64,000 nt of DNA from Prochlorococcus sp. AG-363-B05 (GTDB lineage Bacteria; Cyanobacteriota; Cyanobacteriia; PCC-6307; Cyanobiaceae): assembly GCA_003278445.1 (NCBI GenBank), contig QCFD01000002.1:1-64000 (forward strand), read 5' to 3'. Below the pieces are notes generated by a model. The model searched no databases, was not told the DNA's origin, and worked only from the letters and a program-made list of their open reading frames with translations. Numbering within the stretch: the stretch's first letter is position 1; every line of letters begins with the position of its first letter. The translations under genes and the position numbers were made by a program. Of this stretch, positions 7,760 through 11,651 are shown in pieces.

Positions 7760-8152
7760 ATGGAAGAACAAAAATATGTAATAGCTATAGCTCTTGCAGA
7801 GCAAAATAATAAAAGATTAATGCCTCTTGGAGGAAAAACTAGTGCTGGAGTAGATATTTTAAGTCAATCATCTAAAAAAGAAGCCGAAAAGATAATACTT
7901 GATTTATTACTAAGGTTATTTCAAAGAACTACTGAAGGGAGTCTAAAAATATCAAACGATAAAGCAGGTTTATTACTAGCTGAAATTAGTTTTGAAAGTA
8001 TGCACAAAAATATTCCTGTAATCAAATCAAATTGGATTAATACTGGAGATACAGATACTTTAATAGAGTCATTAAAATCAATATGTTCAAACCTTTGGAG
8101 TGTTAAATTCAAAAAACATGAAGGAATACTATTTAATGACTTAAATAAATAA
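7760..8152 (+). CDS. Hypothetical protein, 130 residues
   Basis: An ATG-initiated frame, divergent from the ABC exporter operon with a 96-base intergenic region that presumably carries both promoters. The protein is soluble, Lys/Ile/Leu-rich, with a glycine-containing N-terminal strand region (PLGGKTSAGVDIL) and no recognisable catalytic motif, signal peptide or membrane helix. I do not recognise the family. Composition and length argue that it is a real gene. Confidence 0.6.
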   Translation: MEEQKYVIAIALAEQNNKRLMPLGGKTSAGVDILSQSSKKEAEKIILDLLLRLFQRTTEGSLKISNDKAGLLLAEISFESMHKNIPVIKSNWINTGDTDTLIESLKSICSNLWSVKFKKHEGILFNDLNK

Positions 8153-9383: not shown

Positions 9384-9602
9384 TTGACTAATCTTACAGA
9401 TTCCAAGAATGCAACTCATCATTGGTATCCATTCTTGAAGTATCAAGAGGAATGTGAAGCCGCTGGCAAGGAAGCTAGTGTTAATGATTGGATGAGAGCT
9501 TCAGGGCAACTACAAAACAGAATTGATTTTGAAGAAGCAAAGAAAGCAGCTGAAGCTGAGGCTCTTAAAGCAAAGGCTGAAGCACCAAAAAAAGAGGCTT
9601 AA
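9384..9602 (+). CDS. Small charged protein with Ala/Lys/Glu-rich tail, unknown
   Basis: 72 residues from a TTG start. The N-terminal half holds a compact tryptophan-containing module (HHWYPFLKYQEECEAAGKEA, then NDWMRASGQL), and the C-terminal half is a low-complexity helix of Ala, Glu and Lys (EEAKKAAEAEALKAKAEAPKKEA). It is higher in GC than the flanking spacer. I recognise the pattern as the kind of small protein found in marine picocyanobacteria but have no function for it. No membrane segment is present. Confidence 0.65.
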   Translation: MTNLTDSKNATHHWYPFLKYQEECEAAGKEASVNDWMRASGQLQNRIDFEEAKKAAEAEALKAKAEAPKKEA

Positions 9603-9802: not shown

Positions 9803-10138
9803 ATGTCGGAGACCAAAACCCTGAATATTCTTCTTGCCCCAGAAGGCCAATTACAGGGTAATGGACAATTAAGAGAATCCTTTCATGAAAGAAGGTCTCG
9901 CAAAGGTGAAGAATATCCTATGTGGTTCTTAAATTCTTCATTAGTTAACAAATTCAATATCACTGAAGAAGAAGGTTATGAAGCTGTTGTAGCGGAAGAT
10001 TCAACAACGATTGCTTGGTTAAAACTTCGATTTGGCGGAGAAAGGTTAACTAAAACATTAGATATTGAAGAGCTTTGGCAATATGCAAGTCAGCCACCTG
10101 AACCGCCAGAAAGAAGAGACATAACACCGCCGAAATAG
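9803..10138 (+). CDS. Ycf54-like (DUF2488-like) protein, candidate cyclase accessory factor
   Basis: 111 residues. The protein shows the overall Ycf54 pattern: an N-terminal strand (LNILLAP), a helix ending in ESFHERRSR, a W-F-L strand (EYPMWFL) and the segment EAVVAEDSTTIAWLKLRFGG, which resembles the AAIVSTxxxFIxWLKLR segment of Ycf54. Ycf54 is about 106 residues in other cyanobacteria and is required for the Mg-protoporphyrin monomethyl ester cyclase. It lies 7 bases before a ferredoxin gene, and the cyclase gene acsF follows convergently, which supports the idea. The similarity is moderate and remembered, not computed, so this is a candidate assignment; the proline-rich C-terminus (PPEPPERRDITPP) is unusual. 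Confidence 0.5.
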   Translation: MSETKTLNILLAPEGQLQGNGQLRESFHERRSRKGEEYPMWFLNSSLVNKFNITEEEGYEAVVAEDSTTIAWLKLRFGGERLTKTLDIEELWQYASQPPEPPERRDITPPK

Positions 10139-10145
10139 ATATTCA

Positions 10146-10532
10146 ATGAAACCAATTCACCAAATAACTATTCATCACAAACAGGAGGGAAAAACATATA
10201 CCTTTGATGTACCTGAAGGTGAGTACATATTGAGAAATTTTGAATCAAAAGATGAAAATGGACAAATTATCGGAGACACATTGCCATTCTCTTGCAGAAA
10301 TGGCTGTTGTTCAGAATGTGCAGTTAAGATAATTTCAGGAGAAATTGATCAACAAGCTTGTATTGGTCTATCCAAAGAGATGAGGGATAAGGGATACGGT
10401 TTGTTATGCGTTTCAAAAGCTATTGGGCCATTGGAATGCGAGACTCAAGATGAAGACGAAGTCTATAACGCTCAATTTGGAAAATATTTCAAAGGATTGG
10501 ACACACAAGCCGGTAATCCATTTGATATTTAA
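10146..10532 (+). CDS. Plant-type [2Fe-2S] ferredoxin (FdC-like)
   Basis: 128 residues. The cluster ligands are Cys50, Cys55, Cys58 and Cys88 (C-x4-C-x2-C-x29-C), within FSCRNGCCSECAV and GLLCVS. It is longer than photosynthetic PetF ferredoxins (about 97-99 residues), with an extended acidic C-terminus (ECETQDEDEVYNAQFGKYF). This fits the FdC-type, non-housekeeping plant-type ferredoxins with C-terminal extensions. It probably forms a transcript with the Ycf54-like gene (7-base gap). Electron delivery to AcsF or another plastid-lineage oxygenase is plausible from context but is inference. Confidence 0.85.
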   Translation: MKPIHQITIHHKQEGKTYTFDVPEGEYILRNFESKDENGQIIGDTLPFSCRNGCCSECAVKIISGEIDQQACIGLSKEMRDKGYGLLCVSKAIGPLECETQDEDEVYNAQFGKYFKGLDTQAGNPFDI

Positions 10533-10547
10533 TTTTTCTAAATAGTC

Positions 10548-11651
10548 TTATTTATCTGTCCAAAAATTTAAAATATCCTGACCTGTAAAATTCACGTTTT
10601 TATCATATCTCAATGCATTTGTCTTCTCCATTGGGAGTGCAAATTGCTTAAATATCAAAGTAGCGAATTTCACAAATTTAACTGGTTTTGTTAAACCTTT
10701 AGCACCAACAAAAGCTCTAAATGATTCGATAATTTTGTTTCTCAAATCCCAAAACTTATTGTCATCAAGATTAAAAACCCAAGGGAAGGCATTTTTAGAT
10801 GTGTGGTTTGTTCTTTTTATCACTTCCTCATCAAATTCCTTTGGATCAATACCAAGCAATTCATAAAACTCACCTCTTTCGCAAACTGTCAAAGTATGAG
10901 TAAGGAAAACACTCCACAGGAAGAAACGACTTAATAGCTTACCTCTAAGTCCTTTGGTAATTCCTGGCCAACATCTCATCATTACTGTAAAACAATCACC
11001 ATGTCTGTTCTCGTCTTGACACCATGGCTCAAAGAAATCAAAAAGAGGAGCAAAAGCCTGATCTGGATTAGCCTTAAGGTGCCTATCCATCAAGATATAT
11101 CGCCAATACCCAATTTTTTCTGAAAGATAAACAGAATAAATTACCCAGCTAATTGGGAACCAAGTCGCTGCTCTTTTCCCACCTAAATGAGGGAGATCAA
11201 CTTCAATACCCTCTGCAACTAATGCTCTGCTAAGAAAGCCTGCATGTCTAGCTTCATCTCTAGCTAAAAACTGAAATAGTTTGCCAAGATCCCTGTTTCC
11301 TTCTTTTTTTAAACGATTTGAAATCTCCTTGAAGAGTAGGAATCCAGAAAACTCAGAGATAACTGATCTAACTAAATAACTCTCATAAGTCTCTTTAGCC
11401 TTCTGGGGCAATTCTTGTAATCGATCTAGACTTGCCTTCCTATCAAAATGAGTACAGTTATAATCCGCTTTCATTTCTGAGAGCATTGCTTCAAACTCTT
11501 CTCGAGCATCAGTTAATTCTGTCTTAGCTGCTTTTTTAAATTCAGTTACGTAAAAACGAGGGGTTAAAAGGTTTTCATCTAAATGAGGCGGCAACTCATT
11601 TGTTCCGCGTGTATCAACTCTTAGTTTTGGTGAAGAAGCTGTAGCGGTCAT
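10548..11651 (-). CDS. acsF: Mg-protoporphyrin IX monomethyl ester (oxidative) cyclase, AcsF
   Basis: 367 residues. It catalyses O2-dependent formation of the isocyclic E ring of chlorophyll. The diiron ligands are visible: Glu100 (VISEFSGF), Glu133-x2-His136 (ARDEARHAG), Glu178 (LSEKIGYWRY) and Glu214-x2-His217 (QDENRHGDC). The length matches the family (about 350-370). It converges on the ferredoxin gene with a 15-base gap, so the oxygenase and a likely electron donor sit end to end. The start ATG is immediately followed by a polar leader; there is no transit or signal peptide. Confidence 0.93.
   Translation of the reverse strand: MTATASSPKLRVDTRGTNELPPHLDENLLTPRFYVTEFKKAAKTELTDAREEFEAMLSEMKADYNCTHFDRKASLDRLQELPQKAKETYESYLVRSVISEFSGFLLFKEISNRLKKEGNRDLGKLFQFLARDEARHAGFLSRALVAEGIEVDLPHLGGKRAATWFPISWVIYSVYLSEKIGYWRYILMDRHLKANPDQAFAPLFDFFEPWCQDENRHGDCFTVMMRCWPGITKGLRGKLLSRFFLWSVFLTHTLTVCERGEFYELLGIDPKEFDEEVIKRTNHTSKNAFPWVFNLDDNKFWDLRNKIIESFRAFVGAKGLTKPVKFVKFATLIFKQFALPMEKTNALRYDKNVNFTGQDILNFWTDK

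Follow-up and report, generated by a model that had tools for sequence, protein, structure and literature searches.

Three genes lying end to end in the genome of Prochlorococcus sp. AG-363-B05 raise the question whether a Ycf54-like protein, a ferredoxin and an AcsF can together make up a complete cyclase for the E-ring step. They are found in a stretch of 64,000 nucleotides (contig QCFD01000002.1, positions 1 to 64,000), further called the window, and an annotation drawn from the letters alone, the original prediction, had marked them as a possible complete cyclase module. All three members proved to be of known kinds and were recovered as a syntenic Ycf54 relative, an FdC2-type ferredoxin and an AcsF; that they suffice for a complete module is what we infer. 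In a full-text literature search, with most subscription papers outside its scope, we found no report of the Ycf54 relative (here named d54), its pairing with AcsF2, the empty ycf54 site or the linkage of the ferredoxin described below. Oxygenic phototrophs are reported to possess Ycf54 throughout (PMC7319587), and the locus points to abundant ocean phototrophs that possess only a Ycf54 paralogue which standard profiles miss.

Gene order and identity of the 111-residue protein

The first gene, d54 (9803..10138, forward strand), encodes a protein of 111 aa that contains the motif WLKLRFGG and is a divergent Ycf54 paralogue, proposed as assembly or stability partner of AcsF2. It is followed, after a gap of 7 bases, by the gene of a 128-aa ferredoxin with a C-terminal extension, of the FdC2/Fed2 type and a proposed electron donor of the cyclase (10146..10532, forward strand), and, 15 bases further, by the convergent acsF gene of the AcsF2 (ChlAII) type (10548..11651, reverse strand, 367 aa). 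The three reading frames, the WLKLR feature, the orientation of acsF and both gaps, as calculated from the ORF coordinates, are all as the original prediction had placed them. The order d54, ferredoxin, acsF2 recurred in 63 out of 63 low-light (LL)-type loci from named genomes and in 30 out of 30 fetched LL loci, the two being overlapping sets, and is not due to chance in LL loci. At the locus itself, neither an Rfam RNA nor a terminator-like site was detected, and promoter-like sites were not in excess there. Two further reading frames near the module, at 7760-8152 (130 aa) and 9384-9602 (72 aa), had no match in Pfam and none of significance in NCBIfam.

The original prediction had proposed a profile search of the 9803-10138 product against Ycf54 as a check, and on its own this search fell short. 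The Ycf54 family PF10674 was the best Pfam match of the protein and spanned residues 42-77 in the right register, with a score of 13.3 bits (E 0.099) against a curated cut-off of 25 bits; the best d54 relative tested reached 22.3 bits. Single-sequence searches with the 111-aa protein returned no NCBIfam match and no match to a solved Ycf54 in the PDB. Since single-sequence searches of Pfam, NCBIfam and the PDB gave no significant Ycf54 match, we turned to profiles, predicted fold and distribution over genomes, and since the protein stays below the PF10674 cut-off, we class it as a Ycf54-like paralogue and not as a member of that family as currently drawn.

Hereby, relatives were gathered from whole genomes and aligned, 42 for d54 and 24 for canonical Ycf54, and a profile-profile comparison of both alignments with hhalign gave a probability of 95.9 (E 6e-9) over 72 columns. 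When the HMM of the 42 d54 sequences was searched against all PDB sequences, the top five matches were five Ycf54 chains, with 3hze as the best one (E 1.9e-6). Searched against Cyanobacteriia genomes, the same HMM matched strongly in picocyanobacteria only, and those of its matches elsewhere that were compared (E about 1e-8 to 1e-4) coincided with the canonical ycf54 places found by PF10674, e.g. G170:C2:90661. An AlphaFold2 model of the protein (pLDDT 87.8) retrieved Ycf54 entries at ranks 1-4 in Foldseek, and VIA-align superposed it on five Ycf54 crystal structures with Z scores of 8.8-9.5, the next unrelated row being at 5.5. PDB folds other than Ycf54 could be dismissed, as they scored 5.5 or less, in the range of common ferredoxin-like arrangements. 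By homology and predicted fold, the 111-aa protein is a divergent picocyanobacterial Ycf54 paralogue. The Ycf54 identity that had been proposed from the sequence pattern holds for a relative recognised by profile, profile-profile comparison and fold, and has to be given up for an ordinary Ycf54, the protein being a deeply divergent paralogue instead.

The comparison with known Ycf54 proteins (PF10674; Slr1780 of Synechocystis, LCAA of tobacco) shows what was retained. The fold is the same (Z 9.1-9.5 to 5m2p, 5m2u and 3jsr), as are the size, the register of A9, E22, E26, W41, W78 and R82 and the association with an AcsF. Seven highly conserved residues of Synechocystis Ycf54 have been examined (A9, F13, E22, E26, D39, F40 and R82); D39 and F40 are needed there for AcsF binding, and loss of R82 abolishes this binding (PMC5317394). 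Four of them, A9, E22, E26 and R82, correspond to A12, E25, E29 and R76 of the window protein and are invariant in all 42 d54 sequences, together with W41, W72, L73 and the RFGG motif. D39, F40 and F13 are not kept, the window protein having P39, M40 and Q16 at these positions, and F40 is retained in 20 of the 42 relatives. In a published AF3 model, R82 of Ycf54 pairs with D216 of AcsF1 (PMC13297055); judged by motif position, this residue would be the last Asp of DENRHGD, which is present in the window AcsF. Where Ycf54 has FL-x-x-EEP-x-x-E and RLEYV, d54 carries GQL-x-x-[ND]-GQL-x-E and RFGG, and its central loop is shortened. It also differs from Ycf54 in being confined to Cyanobiaceae within the class sample, in always having AcsF2 in the same genome and in occurring alongside canonical Ycf54 in some Synechococcus. 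A phage origin of the module was considered and rejected: d54 relatives are absent from viral contigs and acsF from phage records, and phage ferredoxins are PetF-like only (about 36%).

The AcsF type and the linked ferredoxin

The window AcsF scored 342 bits with TIGR02029 (cut-off 192.5), also passed PRK13654 and contains the diiron motifs DEARH and DENRH in its translation. In an unrooted tree, made by a quick method with SH-aLRT support only, AcsF of high-light (HL) Prochlorococcus, AcsF1 of Synechococcus and a single copy per genome from 14 other cyanobacteria formed an AcsF1 clade (SH-aLRT 100%). AcsF of LL Prochlorococcus, including the window protein, lay outside it in a fully supported clade with the second AcsF of Synechococcus, and the AcsF2 copies from other cyanobacteria formed a grade. 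As the root is unplaced and AcsF2 appears as a grade, the link between the picocyanobacterial AcsF2 and ChlAII rests on the position outside AcsF1 and on gene neighbourhood. Among other cyanobacteria, ho2 or hemN was located within 1.5 kb of 9 out of 16 AcsF2-type copies compared to 0 out of 14 AcsF1-type copies, a neighbourhood expected of ChlAII (PMC4500134), and the Synechococcus AcsF2 copies that share the clade of the LL AcsF adjoin ho2/hemN. By these sequence criteria, the window AcsF is of the ChlAII/AcsF2 low-oxygen type; its predicted membership of the AcsF family stands, with the correction that it is not the aerobic AcsF1. The enzyme type is not new here, since Table 1 of PMC4500134 already lists the LL strains NATL1A, NATL2A, SS120 and MIT9313 with chlAII only and HL strains with chlAI; the text of the same paper calls ChlAI ubiquitous.

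The original prediction also spoke of a plant-type ferredoxin with a C-terminal extension, and such a protein is present: it matched Fer2 (E 8e-12) and reached 57 bits with fdx_plant, below the cut-off of 81, and its alignment to PetF stops at residue 107 of 128, leaving about 21 residues beyond. Each picocyanobacterial genome contains one orthologue with at least 49% identity to the window ferredoxin, well apart from the PetF copies of the same genome. Together with this architecture and single-copy orthology, the motif CRNGCC, which we take to be FdC2-like, indicates a ferredoxin of the FdC2/Fed2 type. In barley, FdC2/VirK is required for the cyclase step and can donate electrons in vitro, and the Synechocystis orthologue Fed2 is essential (PMC8408499, PMC10947542). 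The window protein has the same plant-type 2Fe-2S domain, C-terminal extension and one orthologue per genome as these proposed cyclase donors (PMC8408499, PMC10947542), and differs from them in the linkage of its gene to the presumed client acsF2, of which we found no earlier report.

This linkage is restricted to LL Prochlorococcus, where the ferredoxin gene occurs nowhere but in the cyclase module. In HL Prochlorococcus and Synechococcus it adjoins an inositol-monophosphatase-like gene near htpG and dnaK (names by sequence recognition). The gene has left this conserved slot and moved next to acsF2 in LL strains. A linkage of d54, ferredoxin and acsF2 throughout picocyanobacteria is ruled out, as the ferredoxin lies elsewhere in HL Prochlorococcus and Synechococcus; the synteny put forward as a check extends over LL Prochlorococcus and stops there. 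LL-type assemblies without acsF and d54 also have no ferredoxin, which is what a gap in the assembly over linked genes would produce.

Distribution of the two pairs and the empty ycf54 site

PF10674 exceeds its cut-off in 276 of the 291 Cyanobacteriia. A bona fide Ycf54 elsewhere, the counter-case named with the original prediction, did not turn up: PF10674 was above its cut-off in 0 out of 41 genomes of the window's genus, and 8 LL-type genomes in the class sample also had no canonical Ycf54. Among 121 Cyanobiaceae genomes, 42 contain AcsF2 and d54 only, 36 AcsF1 and canonical Ycf54 only and 16 both pairs; in another 10, canonical Ycf54 alone accompanies both AcsF types, 13 assemblies have none and 4, all assemblies of 62-96% completeness in 90-380 contigs, are mixed. 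In this same set, d54 was never found without AcsF2 (59 out of 59 d54 genomes) and canonical Ycf54 accompanied AcsF1 in 62 out of 63 genomes; these co-occurrence counts are uncorrected for relatedness, so that Fisher values calculated from them are not probabilities of independent events. Genomes that we take to be those of the LL strains NATL2A, SS120, MIT9313 and MIT9211 contain d54 only, in agreement with the named LL records, and those presumed to be the HL strains MIT9312 and MIT9301 contain canonical ycf54 only. LL Prochlorococcus has only d54 and AcsF2, and HL strains keep canonical ycf54, the Ycf54 of the HL strain MED4 being part of a published alignment (PMC7319587).

AcsF2 without d54 occurs in ten genomes of Synechococcus/Cyanobium type (G045, G075, G094, G101, G108, G111, G115, G137, G140 and G148), most of which have ho2 and hemN nearby. 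AcsF2 is consequently not always dependent on d54 and can presumably use canonical Ycf54, like ChlAII of Synechocystis, and these genomes are natural controls for such an exchange of partners. Two assemblies stood apart. G066 (99% complete, 30 contigs; L327) has no acsF, no Ycf54 of any type and no FdC2-type ferredoxin, carB being followed by other genes; the linked module probably falls into a gap between contigs, although its absence is unusual for a near-complete phototroph. G063 (3.9 Mb), with AcsF1 and canonical Ycf54, carries acsF2 as two fragments about 2.5 Mb apart (C1:338449-338946 and 2890767-2891177), apparently a decayed or split low-oxygen cyclase.

The loss of ycf54 can be seen at its original position. 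In HL Prochlorococcus and Synechococcus, ycf54 follows pdxJ, and in HL strains recC comes next. Of ten LL genomes examined, every one has recC after pdxJ in the same orientation, and ycf54 is found neither between the two nor elsewhere in the locus. The pdxJ-recC gap measures about 20 to 500 bases in eight of these, with the reading frames meeting or slightly overlapping in one, and about 1.3 kb in two MIT9313-like genomes. With hmmsearch --max and the canonical Ycf54 alignment, the HL and Synechococcus loci were matched (E 1e-45 and 2e-53) and no Ycf54 was found at the LL pdxJ-recC loci. The identity of pdxJ was confirmed by TIGR00559, and the recC product matched TIGR01450 (E 2e-75; a partial protein, below the full-length cut-off). 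Canonical ycf54 was thereby shown to be absent from its ancestral pdxJ-recC slot in LL Prochlorococcus.

A proposed low-oxygen cyclase and its history

In Synechococcus and Cyanobium, acsF2 belongs to a cluster in which hemN, ho2, d54, the genes for an aldehyde-decarbonylase-like and a GT8-like protein, acsF2 itself and those for an ArsR-type regulator and a pentapeptide protein succeed one another in this order, single members being missing in some genomes. In Synechococcus, d54 is transcribed divergently from the adjoining ho2 and is not beside acsF2, and both canonical Ycf54 and the ferredoxin are encoded outside the cluster. The chlAII-ho2-hemN cluster of Synechocystis 6803 and acsFII-ho2-hemN-desF of Synechococcus 7002 (PMC4500134) share the AcsF type and the ho2/hemN neighbours, whereas d54 and the aldehyde-decarbonylase-like and GT8-like genes are additional in picocyanobacteria. 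LL Prochlorococcus kept only acsF2 and d54 of this cluster and added the ferredoxin. Two LL loci, of MIT 0701 and AG-412-I05, still have acsF2 flanked by the ArsR and pentapeptide genes, which indicates that the LL module stands at the site of the low-oxygen cluster. The long-chain aldehyde decarbonylase-like protein (PF11266, E 4e-66) and the GT8-like protein are encoded inside the picocyanobacterial cluster at, among others, L070:3562-4275 and L068:5657-6361. The ArsR-type regulator and pentapeptide-repeat genes flank acsF2 (L070:8095-9002 and the Synechococcus clusters) where other cyanobacteria have the MarR-type ChlR, making the former a candidate low-oxygen regulator of the cluster.

We propose that the three genes very probably encode a complete O2-dependent E-ring cyclase of LL Prochlorococcus that derives from this low-oxygen cluster. 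AcsF2, of the ChlAII type, would be the diiron enzyme; d54 would dock on it through the conserved R76 (R82 of Ycf54) and be needed for its assembly or stability, and the adjacent FdC2/Fed2-type ferredoxin would reduce its diiron centre. The AcsF2-d54 pair would stem from the picocyanobacterial low-oxygen tetrapyrrole cluster (acsF2, ho2, hemN and the ArsR-type regulator), with LL Prochlorococcus losing AcsF1 and canonical Ycf54 and pulling the ferredoxin gene into the cluster's place, and the resulting module would suit low O2. Docking, support of AcsF2 assembly, electron donation and adaptation to low O2 are all steps that we infer. Our confidence is high that the 111-aa protein acts as the Ycf54 of AcsF2, and the linked ferredoxin is likely to be the physiological donor. 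That AcsF1/Ycf54 and AcsF2/d54 have partners which cannot be interchanged is a suggestion we would put forward tentatively. The same caution applies to the wider picture of two dedicated cyclase holoenzymes with non-interchangeable partners, in which LL strains would live on the low-oxygen one alone, with FdC2 as wired-in donor, as a relic of low-oxygen ancestry; we hold it slightly less probable than its opposite.

Two other explanations concern the partners of AcsF2. The 111-aa protein might retain the Ycf54 fold while doing something else in the low-oxygen cluster, e.g. acting as a regulator or partnering heme oxygenase 2, and have come to lie beside acsF2 in LL Prochlorococcus only by shrinkage of the cluster. 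The divergent arrangement with ho2 in Synechococcus, the ten genomes in which AcsF2 does without d54 and the loss of D39, F40 and F13 would all fit this; however, no HO2 or HemN is listed for the LL strains of the published survey (PMC4500134) and neither gene lies near the LL module, yet d54 is beside acsF2 in every LL locus. As d54 moreover never occurs without AcsF2, keeps R82 and E22/E26 invariant and is the only Ycf54 relative of LL strains in a class where Ycf54 is near universal, we regard another job as very improbable. It is less far-fetched, though still unlikely, that the ferredoxin landed between d54 and acsF2 by accident and is a bystander which, as an essential FdC2 of general use, serves other enzymes. 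PetF can drive the cyclase in vitro and roles in iron homeostasis have been proposed for Fed2 (PMC10947542), and in HL Prochlorococcus and Synechococcus the gene lies away from acsF. Against an accident, a slot common to these two groups was abandoned for a new linkage present in every named LL locus, and barley that has lost FdC2 is blocked at the cyclase step (PMC8408499).

With respect to the history of the two pairs, the slots and the AcsF1 tree are explained most simply by a Prochlorococcus ancestor in possession of both, from which HL lineages lost one pair and LL lineages the other. As HL strains are nested among LL lineages, the LL clades being paraphyletic grades (PMC11559063), LL lineages must have lost genes several times in parallel under such vertical retention, a cost that would be avoided if the ancestor had already been without AcsF1 and canonical Ycf54 and HL strains, as the odd ones, had regained both by transfer. 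Yet HL acsF1 occupies the Synechococcus slot, before a tldD/pmbA-like gene, ycf54 likewise sits at pdxJ-recC, and the sampled Synechococcus AcsF1 together form the sister group of HL AcsF1, which does not branch within them; we consider regain doubtful, if somewhat less so than a bystander ferredoxin, and homologous replacement in place is a possible route for it. With its kept R82 and lost D39 and F40, d54 provides a natural test of the essential functions of Ycf54, and the d54/AcsF2 pair one of partner choice, which may differ between AcsF1 and AcsF2. The move of an FdC2-type gene beside acsF2 bears, as independent evidence from cyanobacterial genomes, on the identity of the ferredoxin that supplies the cyclase, and at a step that requires O2 the LL/HL split of Prochlorococcus can be tied to a defined enzymatic difference.

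Both forms of the module were observed in tandem on one Prochlorococcus MAG contig, CATBLW010000233.1 (L070 = G042:C233:1-9000; L186), in the order hemN, ho2, d54, GT8-like, ADO-like and acsF2, followed directly by d54, ferredoxin, acsF2 and ArsR/pentapeptide; this contig is either chimeric or preserves an intermediate of tandem duplication.
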